Assembly (NCBI RefSeq): GCF_023734775.1
Contig: NZ_AP025732.1
Coordinates: 3,106,501-3,170,500 of the forward strand
Direction of reading: 5' to 3'
From: Nostoc cf. commune SO-36
GTDB lineage: Bacteria > Cyanobacteriota > Cyanobacteriia > Cyanobacteriales > Nostocaceae
Length of the DNA: 64,000 nucleotides
In this document: in pieces, positions 558 through 49,962 of the stretch
Layout of the letters: every line of letters begins with the position of its first letter
Position numbering within the stretch: the first letter of the stretch is position 1
The notes under the pieces: model-generated
Databases searched by the model: none
Seen by the model: only the letters and a program-made list of their open reading frames with translations
Told to the model about the DNA's origin: nothing
Made by a program: the position numbers and the translations under genes

Positions 558-672
558 TAAATTCATGAAAGCTGAATTTGGAACGGAGGAACCAATGTTT
601 GGGGCTAATCTTATGAGAGACACCTTCCAGTCTTAGCCCGTCAGCTAACTCCGTAGGCAATGGAAGGAACCC
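558..672 (+). promoter_or_regulatory. ydaO/yuaA-type c-di-AMP riboswitch aptamer
   Basis: The stretch carries the conserved boxes of the ydaO class: GGAGGAACC near 585, GGGGCUAAUC at 601-610, and GUCAGCUAACUCCGUAGGC at 640-658. Pairings seen directly are aaattca 559-565 with tgaattt 573-579, acggag 583-588 with ctccgt 649-654, gggctaa 602-608 with ttagccc 632-638, and ccttcca 623-629 with tggaagg 661-667. The ydaO class is known to bind c-di-AMP and usually turns off ion/osmolyte transport and cell-wall genes. Here it sits about 190 nt upstream of a universal-stress-protein gene, with an ion-transporter gene next. The assignment rests on recalled consensus, not on a covariance search. Confidence 0.8.
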
Positions 673-712
673 CCAACACTTTGGCTGTAATACAGTTATT
701 ATTGGGGTTTCC
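666..712 (+). terminator. Putative expression-platform hairpin of the riboswitch
   Basis: ggaacccccaa (666-676) can pair with ttggggtttcc (702-712), with one mismatch, around an inner ctgtaatacag palindrome. Its 5' arm overlaps the last aptamer helix (661-667), so the two folds compete, as expected for a switch. The downstream U content (ttgattgattt) is weak for an intrinsic terminator, so the mode of control is uncertain. Confidence 0.4.
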
Positions 713-36872: not shown

Positions 36873-37665
36873 TTATTTGCTTTCCTGCATATTTCTCACT
36901 AGTTTAGTCACTAGCTTTCTAGGAGTAAATCTTACAGATTCCGCAAGGAGCTTATTTTTAATTCCAGGAACAACAACAGTTTTGTTTTCTAATAGACCAC
37001 GATAGCCGATTTGGGCTACTGTATCCGCAGTCATAATTTTTTGACCGCTTACTAGCTTTGAGTCTTCCATTGCGGCTCTTTGTTGAAAACCTGATTCTGT
37101 AGGCCCTGGACAAAGCGCTGTCACCGAGACACCAGTACCTTCTAATTCATTAGCGATCGCTTCCGTAAATGATAAAACATAAGCTTTACTAGCGTAGTAA
37201 ACTGCCATCAGTGGCCCCTGGTTGAAAAGCAGCAGTCGAAGCCACATTTAATATTTTTCCAGACCCCCGCTTAACCATATCCTTGAGGAATAACTTGGTT
37301 AAATGTGTCAGACATAAGATATTGACCTGTAGCAATTGCAGTTCAGAATTAAGGTCAATTTCGTGAAATAATCCGTAGGTAGCAAACCCAGCATTATTTA
37401 TCAGCACATCAACTATGATAGATGTTTGTTCTAGCTCAGTGAAAATTTCTTGTGGTGCTGATGGGTTAGATAAATCCTTAGAAATAACTTTGACAGCAAT
37501 GCCAAATTTACTTTTAAATTCATCAGCAATTTTATTCAGCTTGTCCACGCTTCTAGCTACCAACACAAGATTGTAACCATCCTGAGCAAATAACTTAGCA
37601 AATTCATAACCGATGCCGCCAGATGCACCAGTAATAAGAGCCGTTTGTTTGCGATTACTCTGCAT
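36873..37665 (-). pseudogene. Short-chain dehydrogenase/reductase (DltE/YqjQ-like), one-base frameshift
   Basis: NAD(P)-dependent oxidoreductase with cofactor motif ALITGASGGIGYEFAKLF (residues 9-26), DVLINNAGFATYG (NNAG, about 84-96) and SGKILNVASTAAFQPG with the catalytic Ser. One extra C in the CCCC run at 37214-37217 (plus strand) breaks the frame. Repair gives FQPGPLMAVYYASKAYVLSF with the catalytic YxxxK, then CPGPTESGF and the C-terminus NMQESK. Length about 263 residues. Substrate not shown; relatives act on diverse carbonyls. Confidence 0.82.
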
Positions 37666-37834: not shown

Positions 37835-39307
37835 TTATTGCCAGCGCGAAATTTCCAAGCGAACTGACGCATTTGTTCCTAAAACTTTTTGCCCACGTTC
37901 AGGTAAAGGAACATACGCAACATATACATCAGAACTGGATTCTCGATTGGGATTTAACTTGATTAATGGTTCTTTTGCATCGGAATTCCAACTGTATATA
38001 GCTTCATAAGTGCTATTTGATTCGGCAACATCAGTAATTAGATAGTCAGACCACAGTGGTACTTGGTCGAGATGACTATCACGCAACCAATTCGTCTCTT
38101 GTTTTGTGAAAGAATGTAGTGCTAAACGTAGAGCATATCTACAGACATTATTATCACTGGCTGAGTTTCTTGGTATTAAAAAAGCTGTAAATAGAGGAAC
38201 AGGTTTATCTGTTCTAGTTAACTCTTGTGTGATTGGACAATAATGAGCGATCGCTTGCTCATATATAGGAACAGGAAGACCACGCAAAGCAATTCTAGTT
38301 TCCAATTGATAAAAATTCTTGTCCCGGTCTTTCAACTGGACATTGCTCAAAGATAGTTTCACTTGGATATCACCAAACAAAAAGCGTTGCAGGTTTTGAT
38401 AACCTTCTTCGGAATTCAATATGCCATAACGTCCACCATGACTACGATGAACATAAGCACGATGAGATCCCGCAACGTAAGCTCTATCTATCTGAACTAG
38501 ACCATCACTTTTTACCCCCACAGTCTTGCGTGCAAGACCAAAAGCATCTTCATAATCATGTGCATTAGTGCCGATTAAAGAAAAAACGCGGTTTGGCGAA
38601 AATGCACTATCTAAGCTTTGTAGTTTTTCTAGCTGAAATTTATCGGGTAACTTATCGTTTCGTTGGACACGAGGTGTTAAGTACTGGTACATCCGTTGAG
38701 GCCCAAAGTCATCAGAATTATTCAATTGGAACCTGTCTCTGAGTTCTTCAAGCATCCCACTTCCAACCTCAAAATAAATACCACCATGAGGTGTGGCGTA
38801 GGTAAATAATTTGTCAATGTGATCGACGGCTTTCTCACCTTTTTCTGGATAAATCTTTTGAATCAAGCTGCGGCAAACAAGTCCTCCCATTGAGTGCGCC
38901 ACAAGGTAAACTTTGGCTGCACCCGTCGTTTGTTTCACATTCTGAATCAGTTTTCTTAAACCACTCGCTATCTCCTCCATCTCTTGCCGGACTACACTTG
39001 AAGAACCAAAACTAGGTGTAGTTACATCATAAAATCGGTAGATCCAAATAGTTTTATGAAGTTGGCTAGACAATCTTTTAATTTGATTGCTCACATTTTG
39101 ATTGTCAACAATCGGTTGATAACCATGATCGGTCATTAACCGCAGCAATGGACTCTCGAAAAAAAACTTCTGGGGATTTTCCTTCTCATCCACTCGAATA
39201 TGGGTTGAACCATTATTGAATCCATAAAATGGATCATTAACTGTTTGCTCAACGTCTTTTTGTGTACCTGCATATCCACGAACAAAGATGATTGGTAAAT
39301 ACTGCAT
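37835..39307 (-). CDS. Lipase-like alpha/beta hydrolase (PGAP1/LCAT-like)
   Basis: Protein of 490 residues starting at ATG 39307, with gagga 8 nt before it. The hydrolase core covers about 1-310: PIIFVRGYAGTQKDVEQT as oxyanion segment, VYLVAHSMGGLVCRSL with the nucleophile Ser (about residue 140), YATPHGGIYFE as lid/GG motif, and SHRAYVHRSHGGRYGI with the probable catalytic His. A C-terminal beta-type domain (about 320-490) is of unknown type. There is no signal peptide. It is convergent in direction with the adjacent di-heme cytochrome gene (same strand, 187 bp downstream of it), at the edge of the oxidative cluster; a role in freeing the substrate from an ester is inference. Confidence 0.75.
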   Translation of the reverse strand: MQYLPIIFVRGYAGTQKDVEQTVNDPFYGFNNGSTHIRVDEKENPQKFFFESPLLRLMTDHGYQPIVDNQNVSNQIKRLSSQLHKTIWIYRFYDVTTPSFGSSSVVRQEMEEIASGLRKLIQNVKQTTGAAKVYLVAHSMGGLVCRSLIQKIYPEKGEKAVDHIDKLFTYATPHGGIYFEVGSGMLEELRDRFQLNNSDDFGPQRMYQYLTPRVQRNDKLPDKFQLEKLQSLDSAFSPNRVFSLIGTNAHDYEDAFGLARKTVGVKSDGLVQIDRAYVAGSHRAYVHRSHGGRYGILNSEEGYQNLQRFLFGDIQVKLSLSNVQLKDRDKNFYQLETRIALRGLPVPIYEQAIAHYCPITQELTRTDKPVPLFTAFLIPRNSASDNNVCRYALRLALHSFTKQETNWLRDSHLDQVPLWSDYLITDVAESNSTYEAIYSWNSDAKEPLIKLNPNRESSSDVYVAYVPLPERGQKVLGTNASVRLEISRWQ

Positions 39308-39494
39308 ATATATCCTCACTATTTAATAAATATTTTTGCTCGTTCCCAGATTTAACTGAGAACGAGTGCAGAGTATGAAGAAAATTTGTCTTAGATAGAA
39401 ATTGTGTGTACACCGTAGCTTTTGAAGTCAAGCAAGTGGCATAGCTTGGAGGGATATTCCGGGGTCAAATATTATGAACCCCGACATATTAGTA

Positions 39495-41504
39495 TTAGAA
39501 AGTTTTCACAAACTCAATTAAGGCTTTCTTATCTTCATCTGGTAGATTCGAGCCAAAATAATGACCTTCATCTTCAACGAAGTCAGGAGACTTATTAGCT
39601 CTTAAAAGCACGCGTGCCAACTTACCTTTAATTCCACCACCTGGTTTCAAGTCTTGGAAAAGGTTACTCAGATTGAGAGATGTAATCGCCTCTCTGATAT
39701 TGATGCTTGCCAGCAAATTCACAGGCGTACCTTTAGGAACAGGAAGTCTAAATCTCGGATTCGGATCTCCTGGGGGAAGCTCTAATTTGGTATCTCGATC
39801 TGTCCTGCTGATAATTCCTTCACGCTTTTCAGGCCACAATAGCTTCTCCATCGCATCCGTATAGGCTGCTACACGCCCTTTCACTGAAGGATCTTCGTTG
39901 TAAAGTCCTAGTGTGTTGTTGTGAAGAAGTGGTGCTGTTGCCCAAATACTTATTAGTGAAGGTGTACGGTAATATCCCAAACCACCGTTTGGTATCTTAA
40001 ATTCGATGGGTTTTTTCTCATCGAAGGGGTTATACAGGGTCAAATTACCTGGTGATGGTAGTTCTTTGTAGGTCTTCGAGGAGAACTGATCCCAAATATG
40101 CCCCTTGGTTGCATTTGTCCCTAGCGATCGCGCCGCATTAGTACCAATTAGTGTTACCGGATAACGCTGGTCATCAGACAAGAAGTTGTGGTCTAAGAAA
40201 TTACTGCTAAGTACAGACTCTTCGTACCATTTTTGAGCCTGTTCGGGGTCAGCAGCAATCTCAGCAGTTGGCTTTTTGCTGGAATGGCAACCAGCACAAG
40301 TACTGGCAAAAACAAGTTTGCCACGTTTGAGAACTTCTTGGTCTTTAGTCAAGAACTCTTCACCACCTGGCGCATCTTTCAAGTGCATCGGCTCGATGGT
40401 TTTCAGAAATGACTCTGCATCAGCCATACGTGCTTCTGTCTCTCTCCAGTCTTTGCACTCCTTCCGCGCTTTTTCGATATCAAAAGGTTTTTGGGGAGTT
40501 CTGCCTAATAAAGGCTCGTGGAGACTTGTCCAGTAATCGCCGCACATCCCAATGTTGACGTAGACGCGTAGTGAGGCTGTTGCTACTCCTGTAGAGTCTG
40601 CACCATCCTTGAGAATATGATTAACATCCTTGGTTGAACCATCGTTCATCACCTCTGGATATGTGGGGCGATCGCCTAAATTAAAAATGGCGTTAATTGC
40701 ATTCGGATTGTTGATGTGATCGGTGGCAATCCGCGAAGTATCAGAAGTACCCGGTTTCTGAGATTTTAGTACTTGCTTAACAAAACTATTGTCAGCGATA
40801 CTTCTTCCAAAGAATTCGCTTTCTTTGATGTACTGATTACCCAATGCTGGTACTAGGTTTTCCCATTTTGGGTGTTCCTTGTCTTTGGGTGGGTTTAGAG
40901 GATCTAACGCTACGTGACAGATGGCACAAGATTGCCCGATCAAGTAAGGAGGCTCAACTTGTGAGGTTTTGAAATACTCATCAGGGTTCCACTTTGCCTG
41001 TTCGAAATTGGGGTTAGGGAACTTACGCAACCCAATAACGCCAGTTGAAAGCGGGTCTTTACATTTATCTAGCCGCAATCCGTATTCATCTTTTTCTGTG
41101 GATTTTTCACATCCAGGATCGTTAATTGCGCCATATAACTTGAATCGCTCGTCATGATCTTTTGAGTCAATCAGCTTTAACAGGTCAGCACTGCCATGCG
41201 TTCGCTTTGCTAAATCACGATAGTACTTAGCATTACCGCCAGTCCATAAGTACCAAGTGCAACGGCCCCGTTTCTCGGCATCTGTCAAATTCTCCTTTGT
41301 GTACTCTGGGAGATAACCGATACCCTCGCAATTATCCGGGTATTCATTTACATCAGTACTGGAGTATTGACTACTTATGGGCGCAGGTGTCTCACTATAC
41401 TCATCAGCTAGAGCTGTAGCCGTTCCATAAAAGCCGCAGACTATAAACATAGTCACGAACAGCAGGAGCAGACAGCCTTTAAAAATGAGACTTGTCTTTT
41501 TCAT
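39495..41504 (-). CDS. Exported di-heme cytochrome c of the peroxidase/MauG/RoxA-like superfamily
   Basis: Exported protein of 669 residues with a signal peptide (KGCLLLLFVTMFIVCGFYG, cleavage near ALA). Two heme-attachment motifs are seen: CAICH at 193-197 and CAGCH at 403-407. The C-terminal part has YRTPSLISIWATAPLLHNNT (about 530-550), the conserved fragment before the distal site of di-heme peroxidases. It is longer than bacterial cytochrome c peroxidases (~330) and nearer in size to rubber-oxygenase (RoxA) types. Divergent from the operon starting at 42174, which encodes two further di-heme proteins with related C-termini, so a common process is likely. Substrate unknown. Confidence 0.75.
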   Translation of the reverse strand: MKKTSLIFKGCLLLLFVTMFIVCGFYGTATALADEYSETPAPISSQYSSTDVNEYPDNCEGIGYLPEYTKENLTDAEKRGRCTWYLWTGGNAKYYRDLAKRTHGSADLLKLIDSKDHDERFKLYGAINDPGCEKSTEKDEYGLRLDKCKDPLSTGVIGLRKFPNPNFEQAKWNPDEYFKTSQVEPPYLIGQSCAICHVALDPLNPPKDKEHPKWENLVPALGNQYIKESEFFGRSIADNSFVKQVLKSQKPGTSDTSRIATDHINNPNAINAIFNLGDRPTYPEVMNDGSTKDVNHILKDGADSTGVATASLRVYVNIGMCGDYWTSLHEPLLGRTPQKPFDIEKARKECKDWRETEARMADAESFLKTIEPMHLKDAPGGEEFLTKDQEVLKRGKLVFASTCAGCHSSKKPTAEIAADPEQAQKWYEESVLSSNFLDHNFLSDDQRYPVTLIGTNAARSLGTNATKGHIWDQFSSKTYKELPSPGNLTLYNPFDEKKPIEFKIPNGGLGYYRTPSLISIWATAPLLHNNTLGLYNEDPSVKGRVAAYTDAMEKLLWPEKREGIISRTDRDTKLELPPGDPNPRFRLPVPKGTPVNLLASINIREAITSLNLSNLFQDLKPGGGIKGKLARVLLRANKSPDFVEDEGHYFGSNLPDEDKKALIEFVKTF

Positions 41505-42173
41505 AAAACTCTCTAGTTGTAAGACCTAAACCTTATCCACTGCACCTCGCGTTTGCAGAGGCACACTAATAATCCATCAATAATTTCCCATTTTCCAGAT
41601 TTAGTCTTGGGATATTTTGATGATTTAAAATGTACCTTACTGAGGCTCGTTATATATGAACTTACTACACAAATTCGCAAAACGTCATCAATAAACTTTT
41701 ATACATTTATAAACCAAAAAATTAAAAAATTGTAAATTTACAATGGTGTTCAATAACCAATTTGCTATTGTTATATCCGTTACCTACGTATTTGGTGATC
41801 TTTGTAACAGATTGTTAAGTGCTTCTTTTAAGCTTGCCTTAACCTTTAAAAGAGATAAAAAAACGAAAATCCCCATCTTTTTTAAGAATTTCTGTGTAAA
41901 TACCGTAGCTTTACAAATTGCAAAAGTCTTTATATAACTGTAAAAACCAATAAGGGTAAATATCAATGTTGAAGCTTGGTAAGTAAAACTAAGTAACAAA
42001 AACTTAATACTTAGCGTTTGATCCGAAAACCTTCACTGGGGATTTGTAGACATAAAAAACTTCCCTCCCAGAGACTATAAAAATATCAGTCTCTGGCGAG
42101 GCAATTAGTGCTACAAAAAATTCTGCCACCTAATTTTATTACTGAAAATAACAAGTTAAAGACAGAGGAACAC
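41505..42173. other. Divergent promoter region of the oxidative cluster
   Basis: About 670 bp, AT-rich, between the minus-strand di-heme cytochrome gene and the plus-strand flavin oxidoreductase gene. Short open frames here have no homologue-like features or ribosome sites. A hairpin lies at 42068-42096. No repeat element is seen. Confidence 0.45.
42068..42096 (+). promoter_or_regulatory. Leader hairpin before the flavin oxidoreductase gene
   Basis: ccagagact (42068-42076) pairs perfectly with agtctctgg (42088-42096) around an AT loop, about 78 nt before the ATG at 42174. It has no T-run, so it is more likely a 5' leader structure or protein site than a terminator. Confidence 0.4.
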
Positions 42174-43568
42174 ATGGAAAACGATATTATCTTTGAACCA
42201 TTGAGGTTTCGTAATCTCACAGTAAAAAATCGGGTATTTCGCTCTAGTATTTCCGGCAGGTGGGATAACTACGATGGTTCAGGTACTCAAGCCCGAATCA
42301 ACTGGGAATAAAAATTTGCTCGTGGTGGTGTAGGGGCTATTATTACTTCCTTTGTCCCAGTTGCTATCCGGGGAAGAATTATGCCCAATTACGCCACAAT
42401 TCACAGCGATGAAACCGTTCCTTTTTGGCGAAAAGTAGGAGAAAAAGTCCACGAATACGACTGTAAATTTATCTTGCAGTTAAGCCATTCTGGGCGACAG
42501 CAGGATATTGCTGGTATCGAAAACTCAGGAAAAAAAGCGTTAAGTTCTACCAGCCAAACTGAGCCATTCCACGGCTCTTTGTGTCAAGCGATGACACTAG
42601 CAGAAATTAAAGAAACAATCCAATACTTTGCCGATGGTGCTAGACGTGTCCGTGAAGCAGGGCTAGATGGAATAGAATTACATAGTGCTAATGGATATCT
42701 TTTTAATCAATTCCTCAGTTCTGGAATTAATGACCGCCAAGATGAATATGGTGGTTCATTAGAGAATCGAGCGCGGTTTTTGCTAGATGTCATTAGAGCA
42801 ATCCGCAAAGAAGTAGGCAACGACTTTCACCTACAATTCAAAATTAGTGCTGTTGACTATAATAACGCCGTCACCTTTTGGGAAAAGCCAGGTAACACCA
42901 TAGAAGATTCTATCCAAATTTGTAAATGGGCAGAAGAAGCTGGGGCTGATGGCGTACATGTGTCAACTGGTAGCTTATTCCCTCACCCACTCAATCCCAT
43001 TGGTGATTTTAATTTTGATGTCATTAGTAAAACGTATGACACCATGTTGTCGAGTGGGGTAGAGACGACACGCAACTATATTATATTTCGTAAGTCATTT
43101 TTACATCCCCTTTTCAATATTTTCTGGAACCGCGTGAAAAAGCAATTGCCTCCTCAAGCATTTAGTGGTGATGATGTAAAAGACCCCAAAATTAAGAAAT
43201 TACTAGAAGAAAACCAAGGCAGAAACTTGCTCGATGCCAAAGAAATTAAAAAGCACGTTAATATTCCCGTACTATGTACTGGTGGTTTGCAACAGGCTTC
43301 TTATATTCGTCAGGCAATTAATGATAAGTATTGTGATGGTGTCACAATGGCTCGTACCCTAATTGCTAATAATGACTTAGTTAAATCTTTTCAAGCAGGT
43401 AAAGACCTGGCAGATAAACCCTGTACTTATTGCAATAAATGCCTATTAAATGTAACTGAGAATCCTTTAGGTTGTTATGAGCAAGATCGCTTTAATAGCT
43501 ATGAAGAGATGATGAAAGAAGTAATGTCAGTCTTTCATCCAACTCAGTTTGAACATTCATCTAAATAA
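42174..43568 (+). pseudogene. NADH:flavin oxidoreductase (old yellow enzyme family), in-frame stop
   Basis: FMN-dependent TIM-barrel enzyme, which usually reduces alpha,beta-unsaturated carbonyls. ATG 42174 follows gacagagga. The order is IIFEPLRFRNLTVKNRVFRS, then SFVPVAIRGR, KFILQLSHSGRQ (catalytic-type His region), GLDGIELHSANGYLFNQFLS, DRQDEYGGSLENRARFLLD, and the C-terminal CTYCNKCLLN segment with paired cysteines. Codon 46 is TAA (42309-42311), directly followed by KFARGGVGAIITSF in the same frame. A TTA/CTA Leu codon is expected, so one base change kills it. A re-start at ATG 42381 would lack the first strand. First gene of the oxidative operon; next gene 66 bp on. Confidence 0.8.
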
Positions 43569-43634
43569 AAAAGCGATGGGCATCACATTGGCAATTTCGC
43601 TTACAGATAATCTCGACAATATAGGGAGTGTTTT

Positions 43635-45101
43635 ATGACTGAACAAACAAACCCTACCGTACTACCGACCTCAATCAAGGGAGTCTTCCGACGGATTTGG
43701 GTCGTGATTGTAGGTGTTGTAGCAGTAGCAGCATTTTTTCTTTGGCCTGTTTTTTCTAACTCCCCTGTGGATTATGCTGATATTGAAAACCACTTTAAAT
43801 ATGGTTCAATCGGCAGCGAACCCATCAATGGCATCCCTTACTGGATTTGGAAAGTTTTACCAGAACTATTCCCAGATAAATTACCTGCTAAAGGTTATAC
43901 TTCTTTGGGATTTATCAAAGAACCTGATAAAGATTTGCCTGTAGGTTTTTCGCAACGGAGAGTTCTTATTGATCGCATTGGGTTGAATTGTGCTGTATGT
44001 CATACAGGAACGCTGAGAGATACCCCGAATAGCGAACATCAAGTCATTACAGCAATGCCTGCTAATGTGCTTAATTTACAGGGATATATCAAGTTTTTAT
44101 CAGCAGTTGGTGTGGATGAGCGCTTTACTGCTAACCGGATGTTACCAGAAATTGAAAAAATCAGTGGTGGTTTGAATCCCATTGAAAAATTACTTTATCG
44201 TTTTATTGCAATTCCCCAAACTAGAGATGCGCTAATTAATCAGGCATATCGACTTAAGTTTGTTGAAACACAACCAGATTGGGGGCCAGGTAGAGTAGAT
44301 ACTTTTAATCCTTATAAAGCAATTCAATTCCATTTCCCAATGGATAAATTGCGTGAGGATGAACTGATTGGTACTTCTGATTTCCCCTCAGTTTGGAATC
44401 AAAAACCCCGCGAAGGATTGCAGTTACATTGGGATGGTAATAATAGTTCTGTTGATGAACGCAATAAGAGTGCAGCTTTGGGGACTGGAGTCACACCGAC
44501 AACGATTGATTTGCCTCGGATTGATCGAATTGCCGATTGGCTTTGGGAACTACCAGCACCAAAATATCCCTATGAAGTTAAGGAAACTTTAGCAGCTACA
44601 GGAAAACCACTTTTTGAAAGTAATTGCGCTAGCTGTCACGCTTTTGGTGGTGCTTATACAGGCAAAGTTGTTCCGATTCAAGAAATTGGAACAGACAGGC
44701 ATCGCCTAGATTCATTTACTTATGAAACCATCTCTAACCAAAATACCCTGTACGCGGGTTATCCGTGGCGCTTTAAGAATTTCCGCAAGACTAATGGCTA
44801 TGCAAATATGCCCCTTGATGGTGTTTGGTTACGCGGCCCTTATTTGCATAATGGTTCAGTCCCCACCCTGCGGGATTTGTTAGAAAAACCAGAGAATAGA
44901 CCACAAGAATTCTATCGGGGCTATGACGTTATTGATAGAGCAAAAGTTGGCTTTGTCTCTGATGTTGCCGAAGAAAATGGTAAAAAATACTTCAAGTTTG
45001 ATACAAAACTTGCAGGTAATAGCAATAACGGTCATTTGTACGGCGTTGATCTTTCCCCAGAAGAGAAAGATGCAATTGTTGAGTACATGAAAAAACTTTG
45101 A
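43635..45101 (+). CDS. Membrane-anchored di-heme cytochrome c, RoxA/peroxidase-like, copy A
   Basis: Protein of 488 residues with an uncleaved-type N-terminal anchor (IWVVIVGVVAVAAFFLWPVF, 21-40) and two heme motifs, CAVCH (119-123) and CASCH (331-335). Between them lie WGPGRVDTFNPYKA and LQLHWDGNNSSVDERNKSAA, and after the second heme TNGYANMPLDGVWLRGPYLH followed by NGS. These are hallmarks of large di-heme oxygenases/peroxidases of the MauG/RoxA group. ATG 43635 has atagggag in front. The next gene, 31 bp later, is a tandem paralogue. Likely works on the periplasmic or lumenal face with the operon's other redox proteins. Confidence 0.75.
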   Translation: MTEQTNPTVLPTSIKGVFRRIWVVIVGVVAVAAFFLWPVFSNSPVDYADIENHFKYGSIGSEPINGIPYWIWKVLPELFPDKLPAKGYTSLGFIKEPDKDLPVGFSQRRVLIDRIGLNCAVCHTGTLRDTPNSEHQVITAMPANVLNLQGYIKFLSAVGVDERFTANRMLPEIEKISGGLNPIEKLLYRFIAIPQTRDALINQAYRLKFVETQPDWGPGRVDTFNPYKAIQFHFPMDKLREDELIGTSDFPSVWNQKPREGLQLHWDGNNSSVDERNKSAALGTGVTPTTIDLPRIDRIADWLWELPAPKYPYEVKETLAATGKPLFESNCASCHAFGGAYTGKVVPIQEIGTDRHRLDSFTYETISNQNTLYAGYPWRFKNFRKTNGYANMPLDGVWLRGPYLHNGSVPTLRDLLEKPENRPQEFYRGYDVIDRAKVGFVSDVAEENGKKYFKFDTKLAGNSNNGHLYGVDLSPEEKDAIVEYMKKL

Positions 45102-45132
45102 AGGACACTTTAGCAAGGAGAAACCTAAGTTT

Positions 45133-46569
45133 ATGGCAATACTTAAGTCAAAATTAGGGAAAATAATCACCTCAATTGCTGTAGTTATTGTCCTTCTTTT
45201 TGGGGTTGTAGGTTATGCGGGATGGTACAACCTTTTCCGCGAAGTGCCTAGCGAAGTTTATAAGTCACCAGAGGATCATTTTAAATATGGTTCTATTGGT
45301 ACAGAACAGGCGCAAGGTGTGCCGTATTGGATTTGGTTAGTATTACCGCGTATATTTCCCGATAAGTTACCAGGGCCAGGCGGTTATACTTCTTTAGGGA
45401 TTACATGGGAAGAAGGTAAAGAGCTACCAGTGGGTTTTTCTAAAAAAACCATTGGGTTTCCGAGAGTTGGCATAACTTGTGCTGTTTGTCATAATGCTAC
45501 TTATCGAGAAAACCTCAAAGATAAGCCAACAATCATTGCAGCTGGGCCTTCAAATAAATTTGATTCGCAAGGCTATATTCGTTTTCTTGGTAACGCTGCT
45601 AGCGACCCCAGATTTCAAGCTGACTATATCCTTGATGAAATTAAATATAGCCATGAGTTTCCCTGGTGGGAAAACCTGCTTTATCGTTTTGTAATTATTC
45701 CCCAAACAAAGAAAGGACTGCTACAACAAAAAGCTGACTTTGCTTGGACTGATTCTCGCCCCAATTGGGGGCCGGGTAGAATTGACCCGTTTAACCCTGT
45801 GAAGTTCACTACTTTAAGGTTGCCTAAAGATGACACCATTGGTAACTCAGATATGATGCCTTTGTGGAATCAGAAGCAACACCAAAACTTTGCCCTGCAT
45901 TGGGATGGTTTAGAAACTTCGCTGCGAGAAACAGTGCAGACTGGCGCTATTGGTGACGGTGCAACTAAAGAGTCTCTACCAGTAAAGGATCTCCAACGGG
46001 TAGAAGATTATATTTCGGAATTACCACCTCCTAAATATCCGTTTGCAGTTGATGAGCAACTAGCTACACAAGGGAAAGGAATTTTTAGCAGCACTTGTGC
46101 ATCTTGTCACGCATTTGGCGGCGAAAGAACTGGTAAGGTGATTCCTGTTGAAGAAGTGGGAACTGACCGCCACCGTCTAGATATGTGGACGCAGCAAGCA
46201 GCAGATACTTACAACAAATTTGGTGATGGTTATCCTTGGGACTTCAGCGAGTTGCGGAAGACTAATGGTTATGTATCTGTCTCACTTGATGGTCTTTGGT
46301 TAAGAGCGCCTTATCTCCATAACGGTTCGGTGCCATCCTTGCAAGACTTGTTAGAAAAACCAGAGAATCGTCCTCAATCTTTTTACCGAGGATTTGATGT
46401 CTACGACCAGAAAAAAGTTGGCTTTATTTCCGAAGGAGAAGAAGCGCAACGTGTAGGTTTTAAATACGACATTAGTGTTCCCGGCAATAGTAATCAAGGA
46501 CATCTCTATGGCACTGATTTACCCGCCAAAGAGAAACAAGCATTAGTCGAATATCTGAAAACTTTATAA
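45133..46569 (+). CDS. Membrane-anchored di-heme cytochrome c, RoxA/peroxidase-like, copy B
   Basis: Tandem paralogue of copy A, 478 residues. N-terminal anchor (IITSIAVVIVLLFGVVGYAG, 11-30), heme motifs CAVCH (116-120) and CASCH (322-326). It shares WGPGRIDPFNPVKF, FALHWDGLETSLRE, TGKVIPVEEVGTDRHRLD and LDGLWLRAPYLHNGSVPSLQ with copy A. The region around HWDG differs most (DGNNSSVDERN against DGLETSLRETV), so the two could differ in substrate or heme environment. Its stop is 7 bp before the next gene, which means translational coupling. Confidence 0.75.
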   Translation: MAILKSKLGKIITSIAVVIVLLFGVVGYAGWYNLFREVPSEVYKSPEDHFKYGSIGTEQAQGVPYWIWLVLPRIFPDKLPGPGGYTSLGITWEEGKELPVGFSKKTIGFPRVGITCAVCHNATYRENLKDKPTIIAAGPSNKFDSQGYIRFLGNAASDPRFQADYILDEIKYSHEFPWWENLLYRFVIIPQTKKGLLQQKADFAWTDSRPNWGPGRIDPFNPVKFTTLRLPKDDTIGNSDMMPLWNQKQHQNFALHWDGLETSLRETVQTGAIGDGATKESLPVKDLQRVEDYISELPPPKYPFAVDEQLATQGKGIFSSTCASCHAFGGERTGKVIPVEEVGTDRHRLDMWTQQAADTYNKFGDGYPWDFSELRKTNGYVSVSLDGLWLRAPYLHNGSVPSLQDLLEKPENRPQSFYRGFDVYDQKKVGFISEGEEAQRVGFKYDISVPGNSNQGHLYGTDLPAKEKQALVEYLKTL

Positions 46570-46576
46570 CCAAGCT

Positions 46577-47857
46577 ATGAATAAATATGCTGTTTGGTTT
46601 TGCCGCATCGTCTGGCTAGGTATTATCCAAGATTGGGCGATTGGCTTGCCGGCGATCTTTGCACCGAATTGGTTGCTGGAATTACTTCACCAAAGACCTA
46701 GCCAAGACCCGGTATGGACTTCGTTTGCTGGGTTGTTAGTGGTTCTGCTGTCGTTGTTCTACATTCCTGGAGCAAATGACCCCTACCGTTACACTCCCAA
46801 CGCCGTATTAGCGACCCTCGCCCGCCCGCCTGGAGTTCTCTTCTTTTTCTTTCTTTACCCCAATATTTATCCTGCCTTCGGGATTATTGACTTAGTTTTG
46901 TGCTTATTCCAAATCCCATTGTTGATACTGACTATGCTCAACAAACCTCAAGTTTCCACACCGGATAAAGATGTTTTCGAGTATGACGGGTCTACCCACA
47001 ACGAAGTTAAAGAAGTTGGTTTTAGTAGCCCTTATGGTGAACCACTGCCTTATCACGAGGGTCTGGGACTAACAAAATTTTTGCAGTTTCTCAACGATTC
47101 GGCGCGGAATATGTTCGATAAACGGGATATCCGCCCTTATTACGACAAGTTAATTCACGCTAATGGTATTTGTTGCTCAGGTGTTTGGCGAATTACTGAG
47201 GATTCCCCTTATACAGGCTACTTTGCTAAGGGTTCAGAAGGTTTAGTGTTTGCCCGCCTTTCGGTTGCTGGTGCTGGAATTAAACGGGGCGATCGCCGCG
47301 CCTTTGGGATTGCGGGTAAGGTTTATCCTACTCTCAACCCGAATGAGAAGGTAAAACCAGGCAATTTTGTTACCGTCGATTATCTAACAGGTATTAAGAC
47401 GAAGCATATTACTGATACTGAGTTAACTAACTTTCCTTCTGTCGGTTTAGATATTGGAGCTAACTTAGTTAACCGGATCATTTTCCGACTGATGGACAAA
47501 AGACCCGGTTTTCGTCAGCTATTCCCAATCTCAACCCTTGGTGTCGCACCAGGAAGCAAAGTTGTCACCCCAGACCAATTTATGCTGAGGGTGGCACAAG
47601 GTACAGCCAAGATAGATGCAGAAGACTTCCGCGATGAACTGCGGTTAGAAAAGTATCCTGACCACAAATTGGTTTATACCATCAACGTTAAAAACTTCAA
47701 CGAAAAAGAGTGGACGAAGTTGGGTGTGATTGAATTCAATGACTATTCCATCTGTGAAGGTTGCGATAAACGGATACATTTTTGGATTCCCCGCGACATC
47801 CCAGTACCGGAAAGAGATAACCTTGCCCGTCCAGCAGATCCCGTAGTGATTAAGTAA
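46577..47857 (+). CDS. Membrane protein with C-terminal catalase-like heme domain
   Basis: Protein of 426 residues in two parts. Residues 1-130 hold about four membrane segments (WAIGLPAIFAPNWLLELL, FAGLLVVLLSLFYIPGA, GVLFFFFLYPNIYPAFGI, IIDLVLCLFQIPLLILTM). From about 150 on there is a soluble domain whose landmarks recall the catalase superfamily: KLIHANGICCSGVWRIT, FAKGSEGLVFARLSVAG, RAFGIAGKVYP, and near the end WTKLGVIEFNDYSICEGC and IHFWIPRDIPVPERDN. The catalytic His/Asn pair cannot be assigned with certainty. Fusion of a membrane part to this fold is unusual. In its operon it stands between two di-heme cytochromes and a flavin oxidase, so peroxide or hydroperoxide handling is the plausible role. 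Confidence 0.55.
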   Translation: MNKYAVWFCRIVWLGIIQDWAIGLPAIFAPNWLLELLHQRPSQDPVWTSFAGLLVVLLSLFYIPGANDPYRYTPNAVLATLARPPGVLFFFFLYPNIYPAFGIIDLVLCLFQIPLLILTMLNKPQVSTPDKDVFEYDGSTHNEVKEVGFSSPYGEPLPYHEGLGLTKFLQFLNDSARNMFDKRDIRPYYDKLIHANGICCSGVWRITEDSPYTGYFAKGSEGLVFARLSVAGAGIKRGDRRAFGIAGKVYPTLNPNEKVKPGNFVTVDYLTGIKTKHITDTELTNFPSVGLDIGANLVNRIIFRLMDKRPGFRQLFPISTLGVAPGSKVVTPDQFMLRVAQGTAKIDAEDFRDELRLEKYPDHKLVYTINVKNFNEKEWTKLGVIEFNDYSICEGCDKRIHFWIPRDIPVPERDNLARPADPVVIK

Positions 47858-47862
47858 ATTAT

Positions 47863-49450
47863 ATGAGCCAGCAATTTGATGTCATCGTTATTGGCAGCGG
47901 CTTTGGTGGGTCAGTAGTTACCTGCCGTTTGGCTGAATCAGGAGCGCGGGTTTTGGTGTTAGAACGCGGACGGCGTTGGACTAAAGACCAATACCCACGT
48001 CAAGCCAAAGATGCCTGGATTTATGAACACACCCAGCCGCAAAAATATAATGGCTGGCTCGATTTACGTTTCTTTAAGGGGATGGCCGTAGCTCAGGGGG
48101 CGGGGGTTGGTGGTGGTTCTCTGTGCTATTCCAGCGTGGTTTTAGAAGCAAATCCGACGCGATTTGAGCAAGGCTGGCCACGGGAAATTACTTACAGTGA
48201 ATTGCTGCCTTACTACGATCGCGTGCGAAAAATGATGGGTGTGCGTCCTATACCTCCAGGACAGCATACCCAACGGGCAAAATTGATGCAACAAGCGGCG
48301 CAAAAGGTGGGGTATAGCGATCGCTTCCAAAGTATGCCTTTAGCCATCTCCTTCGATTCAGACTGGAACTACCAACTGGAAGACCCTTTGAATGAAAAGC
48401 ACTCGCGGCAATTTGTCAATGCCCAAGGGCAAAAACAAGGCACTTGTATCCATCTGGGTAATTGTGATTTAGGGTGTGATGTTCACGCCAAGAACACCCT
48501 TGATTTGAACTATATCCCGGCTGGAGAAAACAAAGGTGCAGAAGTGCGATCGCTCCACTTGGTACGCTATATTCAACCAGATGAAGGCGGCTATCGCGTC
48601 ATCTTCGACCGCATCGAAGACGGCAAACTAATTCGTGGTGAAGAGAGGGCCAAAATAGTTGTCATCGCCGCAGGTTCCCTTGGTTCTAGTGAGTTGCTAT
48701 TAAATAGCCGCGATAAGTACGGCACTTTACCTAAAATTAGTCAGCAACTCGGTAAAAAATTGGAGTGCTAATGCCAACGTTCTGACCCCCGACTTTTACG
48801 GTAAAGATGTTGAGGTTAAGCAGTCTATTGGCCCAACTATTACCGCAGGTATGGACTTTACCGACGGTAGCTTTGAAGGTGAGAGTTTTATTATTGAAGA
48901 TGATGGTTTTCCCAATATGTTGCTGAATGCCATTAGCAGCAAAGTTAATTCTGGCAAATTCAGCCTATTCGCCTTAGCTTTACGCAACCATTTGCAACGT
49001 GGACTGGACGAAAAAAATCCCTTAAGCAATGTTATGGTTTGGCTAGGTGCGGGTGTTGATGCTGCCGACGGAAAACTTTCTCTCGGTCGCAACTGGCTCA
49101 AACCTTGGGAAACAGACTTAAAACTTGACTGGAATATCCAGCGCTCAAAGTCTGCAATTGATGCCATCCTGAATCTGCAAAAGCAACTTTCCCAAGCTAA
49201 CGGGGGTAAACTTTACATTCCTTTGTACTGGTCGGTTCTTCGTAGTTTGTTGACAGTGCATCCTCTGGGGGGTTGCAAAATGGGCACAACTGCTGAAGAT
49301 GGCGTTGTCGATCATAAAGGCGAAGTCTTTGGCTACAAAAATCTTTACGTCGCGGATGGGGCAATTTTACCTCAAGCTGTTGGACGCAACCCTTCTATGA
49401 CTATCGCTGCCTTAGCAGAACGGGTGGCTCACTTAATGGTGAGCAACTAA
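47863..49450 (+). pseudogene. GMC oxidoreductase (cholesterol-oxidase-like), one-base frameshift
   Basis: FAD-dependent alcohol oxidase/dehydrogenase. The N-terminus FDVIVIGSGFGGSVVTCRLA (residues 4-23) and VLVLERGRRW are the FAD motif; GAGVGGGSLCYSSV follows at about 77-90. The first frame ends at 48771 with LGKKLEC. Removing one A from the A-run 48754-48759 gives LGKNWSANANVLTPDFYGKD and the rest: VHPLGGCKMGTTAEDGVVDH with the active-site His, and VADGAILPQAVGRNPSMTIA closing the FAD site. Repaired length about 528. It is closest in style to cholesterol oxidase type GMC enzymes. Five bp after the catalase-like gene, last gene of the operon. Confidence 0.82.
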
Positions 49451-49531: not shown

Positions 49532-49962
49532 CCCCGTCCTTCTAGGACGGCTTTCAATTAATTAGTGTACCAGTACACTATGCTAATAATAGTGGAAAGG
49601 TAATCAACCACTTAAAAAACCTAGCTGTCAAAAGACAAAGCACTAAACCTTGATAATTGAACGGCAGTTGCTCTACTTGGGGAAACCCCAAGACCGCACT
49701 GCCTCATCTATGCGGTTCTACTGCATTTTTCTAGTTTCCTCCTAGCAGTAGGTAAAAGATTCATAGGGGCTAGACGACTCAGAATTTTGGAACAAATTGT
49801 TTCAAGTAAAACAGGACTTGCAGAAATGCAACTACCGAGGGGCACTCGGAAAGTTAACGCTTGGGGAGAATCCCACCTATGGTCTAGATGACGCAAGGAC
49901 TCTAGATTAAGTGGTTTCGTTGAACCAAGAATCCCGGTCGATTTATCGCGGGGAGTGTCAAG
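49532..49962 (+). mobile_element. IS200/IS605-family remnant with tnpB 3' end
   Basis: The left side has the typical end hairpin ccgtccttctaggacgg (49533-49549) and a agtgtaccagtacact palindrome (49563-49580). The right side encodes the C-terminus of TnpB from about 49760 (RLRILEQIVSSKTGLAEMQL, then GTRKVNAWGESHLWSR). An in-frame TGA (49887-49889) follows, then RKDSRLSGFVEPRIP. The right end shows gaaccaagaatcc plus a cgcggggagtgtcaa tail. All of tnpA and most of tnpB are missing. The remnant overlaps the 3' end of the neighbouring FAD oxidoreductase gene. Confidence 0.7.

Follow-up and report, generated by a model that had tools for sequence, protein, structure and literature searches.

A recurring bacterial gene cassette built on RoxA-related di-heme proteins, possibly a modular pathway of fatty-acid oxidation

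Introduction

To our knowledge, few bacterial oxylipin pathways have been described beyond the diol synthase of Pseudomonas aeruginosa and single lipoxygenases or oxygenase fusions. In the diol synthase, two tandem RoxA-related di-heme proteins of the FadCcp family, PA2077 (10S-DOX) and PA2078 (7,10-DS), take part in oleate oxygenation, one making an oleate hydroperoxide and the other converting it (PMC4496055). Cyanobacteria are known to carry catalase-lipoxygenase and catalase-heme-dioxygenase fusions (PMC11719350) as well as fatty-acid alpha-dioxygenases (PMC8720084). Here, we analyze a 64,000-nucleotide stretch of the genome of Nostoc cf. commune SO-36 (contig NZ_AP025732.1, positions 3,106,501 to 3,170,500; "the window"), in which three di-heme protein genes lie with genes for an ene-reductase-like enzyme, a catalase-fold protein with a membrane domain, a GMC oxidoreductase, a probable lipase, and a short-chain dehydrogenase. 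A core of this gene set recurs across phyla with a changing partner enzyme. We propose, with a probability of roughly 0.55, that the cassette encodes a modular fatty-acid oxidation (oxylipin or lipid-hydroperoxide) pathway based on the di-heme proteins.

Results

The plus strand of the window holds an operon in the order OYE-DHA-DHB-CATm-GMC, with intergenic gaps of 66, 31, 7, and 5 bases. Divergent from it on the minus strand lie DH3, then the lipase-like LIP, and then SDR. These labels denote the genes of the locus, and numbers with L or G denote the loci and genomes compared. The genome carrying the window is 7.4 Mb, and its closest relatives found are Nostoc. Operon coordinates, order, and gaps, and the divergent di-heme and lipase genes, are as a first-pass annotation of this DNA had described them. 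Corrections concern the OYE frame, which starts at 42174 and contains an in-frame stop, and GMC and SDR, which are frameshifted.

36873..37665, minus strand: SDR, short-chain dehydrogenase, in two frames (37189-37665 and 36873-37247) split by a frameshift
37835..39319, minus strand: LIP, alpha/beta-hydrolase, probable lipase, like the Pfam PGAP1, DUF676, and palmitoyl-thioesterase families
39495..41504, minus strand: DH3, di-heme c-type protein, 669 amino acids, CxxCH at 193 and 403, N-terminal hydrophobic segment
42174..43568, plus strand: OYE, flavin mononucleotide (FMN) ene-reductase-like NADH:flavin oxidoreductase, in-frame TAA at 42309-42311
43635..45101, plus strand: DHA, di-heme protein, 488 amino acids, CxxCH at 119 and 331, PYLHNGSVP, N-terminal membrane anchor
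45133..46569, plus strand: DHB, di-heme protein, 478 amino acids, CxxCH at 116 and 322, PYLHNGSVP, N-terminal membrane anchor
46577..47857, plus strand: CATm, four-helix membrane domain (about 1-125) and predicted catalase-fold domain (about 140-410) with conserved heme-site residues
47863..49450, plus strand: GMC, cholesterol-oxidase-like GMC oxidoreductase, in frames 47863-48771 and 48851-49450, frameshift near 48770

DHA, DHB, and DH3 each carry two CxxCH heme motifs, which are invariant across 12 alignment rows. In NF040606, the NCBIfam di-heme cytochrome C peroxidase family (cut-off, 150 bits), DHA reaches 187 bits and DHB 180, which makes both members; DH3, at just 43 bits, is not one. 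Hydropathy of the N-terminal segment of DH3 suggests that this protein is exported or anchored. DHA also matches the RoxA-like Pfam family PF21419, and the closest solved relative of DHA and DHB is the rubber oxygenase RoxA (4b2n; sequence profile match, E of 2e-21). The heme ligands and inter-heme Trp of DHB align to this structure: RoxA His195, His641, and Trp302 have equivalents in DHA and DHB, whereas Phe301 and Phe317 are replaced. The position of Phe317 is Ile273 in DHB and Leu in DHA, as placed by a weak profile block with 4b2n (13.7 bits). For this residue mapping, we relied on short blocks of a profile alignment because the AlphaFold model of DHB is too poor (mean predicted local distance difference test score of 65), and a fold search with it gave no match at an E value of 0.001 or better. 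The cut-offs of the RoxA, RoxB, and RoxC families, 900 to 1000 bits, are not reached, the best score being 83 bits (RoxC, for DHA).

Like the oleate diol synthase, the locus has two tandem RoxA-related di-heme c-type paralogues, and the PYFHNGSVP motif of PA2077 and PA2078 corresponds to PYLHNGSVP in DHA and DHB. The P. aeruginosa pair is periplasmic; DHA and DHB are predicted to face outward from their anchor and c-type hemes. PA2077 and PA2078 are longer, at 634 and 624 amino acids with heme motifs 235 to 245 apart, than DHA and DHB at 488 and 478 with a spacing of 206 to 212 (a comparison with the published numbers rather than an alignment), and they have Phe (F269 and F260) at the RoxA-317 position where DHA and DHB have Leu and Ile (PMC4496055). 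They also form a two-gene operon, whereas DHA and DHB are accompanied by OYE, DH3, a membrane protein, and an oxygenase that varies. Because length, spacing, and the Phe317 equivalent do not agree, we do not place DHA and DHB in FadCcp; judged by their sequences, they are comparable to that family at most.

A tree of 106 proteins resolves three clades, DHA (39 rows; support, 89), DHB (30 rows; support, 99), and DH3 (24 rows; support, 100), each of which spans phyla, and 9 of 10 generic di-heme peroxidases group separately. A grouping with simple H2O2-reducing peroxidases only, which would have refuted the first-pass annotation, is not what the tree shows. The tree was built by a quick method and has some long branches; one control (L067) stands alone on such a branch, and L070 and the pair L060/L097 also fall outside the four main groups. 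The ten controls, none of them characterized, are weaker di-heme matches hand-picked among the better scores from samples of Proteobacteria and of the phylum of a Myxococcaceae bacterium, in which 4 of 7 and 2 of 32 di-heme matches, respectively, are full length. Because the DHA, DHB, and DH3 groups each span phyla, the paralogues seem to have traveled together. Locus L070 (G029) carries a very divergent di-heme protein beside an alpha-dioxygenase-like protein (a frame of 962 amino acids), perhaps an independent pairing.

Within the genus, 23 of 53 genomes hold DHA and DHB. This count includes two genomes (G005 and G050) whose DHB gene is broken or spread over contigs and leaves aside di-heme matches below 160 bits (G029 among them) and a fragment at a contig end (G049). 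Across the order, 26 of 291 genomes gave a match, two of them in the same genus, leaving 24 loci from other genomes; here, the di-heme genes have OYE nearby in 18, the membrane protein in 14, and DH3 in 10, with several contigs ending early. Farther afield, DHA-DHB-CATm-GMC with DH3 is found in a Myxococcaceae bacterium (L006, where DHA is truncated at the edge of the contig) and in Thiocystis violacea (L007), both with a second GMC accompanying DH3, and the same four genes lie on a short contig of an uncultured bacterium (L008) with no DH3 visible. In plasmids of Rhizobium and Sinorhizobium, the order is OYE-DHA-membrane protein-DHB-DH3-GMC-patatin-like phospholipase, as seen in the three records opened from a set of 18 with DHA and DHB at about 46 to 50% identity.

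Synteny of the set thus extends over cyanobacteria, Myxococcaceae, Thiocystis, and plasmids of Rhizobium, contrary to the lack of synteny that would have refuted the first-pass annotation. The conserved oxidative gene set which that annotation had proposed, lipase-like and di-heme genes included, is real. We take the recurrence of gene order across phyla, together with the low substitution-rate ratios of DHA, DHB, and CATm given below, to indicate more than chance. Judging by its distribution, the cassette is not specific to cyanobacteria and evidently moves between lineages. In one further locus (L060, genome G800), a fusion of GMC with an alpha/beta-hydrolase precedes the membrane protein and DHB.

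Comparison of loci shows that OYE, DHA, a small membrane protein of four helices, and DHB, often with a divergent DH3, make up a conserved core, beside which the partner enzyme varies. In the genus, ten genomes have the form of the window, with CATm-GMC after DHB (type I; seven with whole CATm and three decayed), and 13 have OYE-DHA-membrane protein-DHB followed by a lipoxygenase (type II; seven of the 13 loci were opened at 18 kb, and the lipoxygenase was placed in all 13 from coordinates). The lipoxygenase lies directly behind DHB in 13/13 type II genomes and in 0/10 type I genomes. All 13 type II proteins exceed the PF00305 cut-off of 23.6 bits (that of L038 scores 210 bits), and for the one sequence compared with solved structures, the nearest relative is arachidonate 15-lipoxygenase (5mef; E of 6e-131). 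Genome-wide, lipoxygenase is absent from 6/10 type I genomes versus 3/43 other genomes of the genus (Fisher P of 6e-4, not corrected for relatedness), counting a broken fragment in G046 as present. Because a distant cyanobacterium with the lipoxygenase form (L077) takes the outgroup position in the tree relative to both Nostoc types, the CATm-GMC form in Nostoc is probably derived and was probably acquired from outside.

A third partner belongs to the animal peroxidase family. Eight loci have a relative of alpha-dioxygenase no farther than about 4 kb from OYE or DHA, five cyanobacterial (L079, L081, L084, L087, and L091; 5/24 of the other genomes of the order) and three proteobacterial (L047, L059, and L061; 3/11 further loci). 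The gene of L047 (Qingshengfaniella), the only one compared with solved structures, matches fatty-acid alpha-dioxygenase 4kvj at an E value of 4e-109 and lactoperoxidase at 1e-28, and the other seven match it at 46 to 57% identity. Seven of the 24 core genomes of the order have a strong alpha-dioxygenase match, five beside the core and two on other contigs; in one of the latter (G1082), the core ends 138 bases from the contig end. We left three matches near 1e-21 (one in G1193, two in G1262) out of this count. The words operon, gene cluster, neighbor, and cytochrome are absent from the text of PMC8720084, on cyanobacterial alpha-dioxygenases. In the Rhizobium and Sinorhizobium cassettes, a patatin-like phospholipase gene lies directly behind GMC in 3/3 opened records, the Pfam match of the Sinorhizobium protein being below the cut-off, and in Sinorhizobium a gene for a Tle1-like phospholipase lies just upstream of the cassette. 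The ten loci of the generic di-heme peroxidases hold no listed partner family.

The structural model of CATm matches catalases, consistent with a catalase fold. His194, Asn263, Arg356, and Tyr360 are invariant in 23/23 rows, so that the four heme-site residues of catalases are kept. From the motifs, we take H194 and N263 to be the distal residues and R356 and Y360 to be the proximal ones. CATm had no Pfam, NCBIfam, or PHROGs match, and comparison of its sequence with solved structures gave chance matches only. In a comparison with the coral allene oxide synthase and the 33-kDa catalase-related protein of Mycobacterium avium, the residue preceding the distal His of CATm is Ile in 23/23 rows; the coral enzyme has Thr there (Thr66; PMC5617202). 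Because Ile and not Thr precedes the distal His, H2O2 is favored as the substrate. With the catalase-oxygenase fusions, CATm shares the pairing of a catalase-fold hemoprotein with (proposed) fatty-acid oxygenation; the difference is that CATm is fused to a membrane domain and adjoins GMC (PMC11719350).

Outside the genus, CATm was not found in a sample of 339 cyanobacterial genomes in which at most five candidates per genome were scored, and the plasmid search gave no full-length CATm. A relative of its catalase domain (31% identity, with the membrane part unmatched) lies on a Mesorhizobium plasmid (L046, 7950-9023), where a GMC gene with an annotated length of 4689 bases sits about 3.7 kb away. 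The CATm homologues of L006, L007, and L008, like some metagenome homologues, have the four-helix membrane domain doubled in tandem. In the window, CATm looks recombinant, with about 95% identity to L032 to L034 and 88% to L003 to L005; DHB, DH3, and LIP are closest to L004. The two halves of GMC score 183 and 73 bits against the cholesterol oxidase family NF058674 (cut-off, 850), scored only as a split gene. LIP accompanies DH3 in 11/11 type I loci (nine distinct genomes) and 5/7 type II loci, and its hydropathy shows no hydrophobic signal segment.

Three genes are broken in the genome carrying the window: OYE by an internal stop that is a substitution rather than an insertion or deletion, and GMC and SDR by frameshifts. 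Because these three genes are interrupted, the route is probably incomplete in this genome, the locus being probably a damaged copy of a conserved cassette. We give somewhat less than an even chance to sequencing errors and a working pathway. That explanation is favored by two of the three breaks being frameshifts and by the intactness of the genes in the relatives examined: OYE in 18/18 Nostoc loci covering the whole gene (16 distinct genomes), GMC in 8/8 type I loci holding it, and SDR unbroken in 18/18 loci where it has a match, several of them extending to a contig or locus end. The eight full type I rows come from six distinct genomes besides the window, L099 being the same contig as L004 and L100 the same as L005. 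DHA, DHB, and CATm are also, as judged from their sequences, under purifying selection between Nostoc genomes, with ratios of nonsynonymous to synonymous substitution rates of 0.04 to 0.13; the ratio is up to 0.15 for DH3 and up to 0.25 for LIP. Errors account less well for the substitution in OYE, and the locus decays elsewhere: two Nostoc loci (L035 and L036) have lost GMC and retain only the membrane part of CATm, and in a third (L037), CATm is broken near the contig end, beyond which GMC cannot be judged.

Discussion

The first-pass annotation had proposed a sterol-, terpenoid-, or carotenoid-like substrate. The lipoxygenase, alpha-dioxygenase, and phospholipase partners point instead to fatty acids, and we favor a fatty-acid oxidation pathway in which a lipase (a phospholipase in Rhizobium) would free the fatty acid and a dioxygenase would make the hydroperoxide. 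The latter would be the lipoxygenase or alpha-dioxygenase where present; in type I loci, a di-heme protein may itself be the dioxygenase, as is 10S-DOX in P. aeruginosa. The anchored DHA, DHB, and DH3 would then convert the hydroperoxide at the membrane surface that faces outward, to the periplasm or lumen. The hydroxyl group would be oxidized or reduced by GMC and SDR, and OYE would reduce the resulting enone, like oxophytodienoate reductases. It is plausible that CATm removes or uses the H2O2 made by GMC; alternatively, it may act on the hydroperoxide. The linkage of the genes was established by comparing loci, and we infer every reaction.

Several observations weigh against this pathway. 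The type I operon itself has neither a lipoxygenase nor an alpha-dioxygenase, and OYE was not found in 6/24 loci of the order. Six loci (L056, L057, L058, L086, L094, and L096), several of them on short contigs, yielded no partner family, and the control locus L067 holds a distant alpha/beta-hydrolase. Alpha-dioxygenase is present in 7/24 genomes with the core and 1/18 without it, which is not significant (Fisher P of 0.11) in groups that differ in families. DHA and DHB need not share the chemistry of PA2077/PA2078 or of RoxA because Leu or Ile replaces Phe317 of RoxA, a residue kept as Phe in PA2077 and PA2078. CATm may be a plain H2O2 catalase, and a GMC from the same cassette type has cholesterol oxidase as its closest solved relative.

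This last match, together with that of DHA and DHB to RoxA, would fit an isoprenoid route in which the di-heme proteins cleave a carotenoid, terpenoid, sterol, or hopanoid, GMC oxidizes the 3-hydroxyl, and OYE reduces the enone. We consider such a route unlikely, given that DHA and DHB score only 53 to 55 bits against the RoxA cut-off of 1000 and lack its Phe317, and that the oxygenases beside related cassettes are relatives of fatty-acid enzymes. Peroxide defense, with the di-heme proteins as reductases of H2O2 or organic peroxides, CATm as a membrane catalase, and GMC and OYE in redox housekeeping, is in our view similarly doubtful. Membership of DHA and DHB in the di-heme peroxidase family speaks for it, as do the catalase heme-site residues of CATm and the Ile before its distal His; three di-heme clades kept together with peroxide-making enzymes and a lipase nevertheless exceed the needs of defense, and the ten generic di-heme peroxidases have other neighbors. 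Removal of lipid hydroperoxides would fit both defense and an oxylipin pathway.

A role in maturation, in which the di-heme proteins would, in the manner of MauG, modify a peptide or protein, recalls the PYLHNGSV motif described for MauG (noted in PMC4496055). We regard it as highly improbable: the known partners are relatives of lipid enzymes, and no conserved gene for a small substrate was noticed in the loci, though no search was aimed at one. Returning to fatty-acid oxidation, a more specific and distinctly speculative version for type I would have GMC produce H2O2 from a lipid alcohol for a membrane mini-catalase that occupies the lipoxygenase slot and acts as a fatty-acid peroxygenase, with the RoxA-related di-heme proteins as a new hydroperoxide-converting class; we think it improbable as a whole.

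The catalase-oxygenase fusions and the P. aeruginosa oleate route were already known. The conserved cassette is apparently undescribed, as the first-pass annotation had also supposed; the titles and abstract openings of the open-licence papers searched gave no account of it. The cassette is common to cyanobacteria, myxobacteria, rhizobia, and a purple sulfur bacterium; if our proposal is correct, it has exchangeable oxygenases, would assign cyanobacterial lipoxygenases to a pathway, and would identify a membrane di-heme protein family as lipid enzymes. The location on Rhizobium plasmids raises the question of whether bacteria associated with plants produce or degrade jasmonate-like signals.

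Two further elements of the window lie outside the genes discussed.

49534..49550, plus strand: terminator-like hairpin 3' of GMC, a pattern match only; such sites are no commoner than in shuffled sequence
560..674: c-di-AMP riboswitch (ydaO/yuaA leader)

In the scan for promoters and terminators across the window, sites were no more numerous than in shuffles. The riboswitch scores 63.5 bits.

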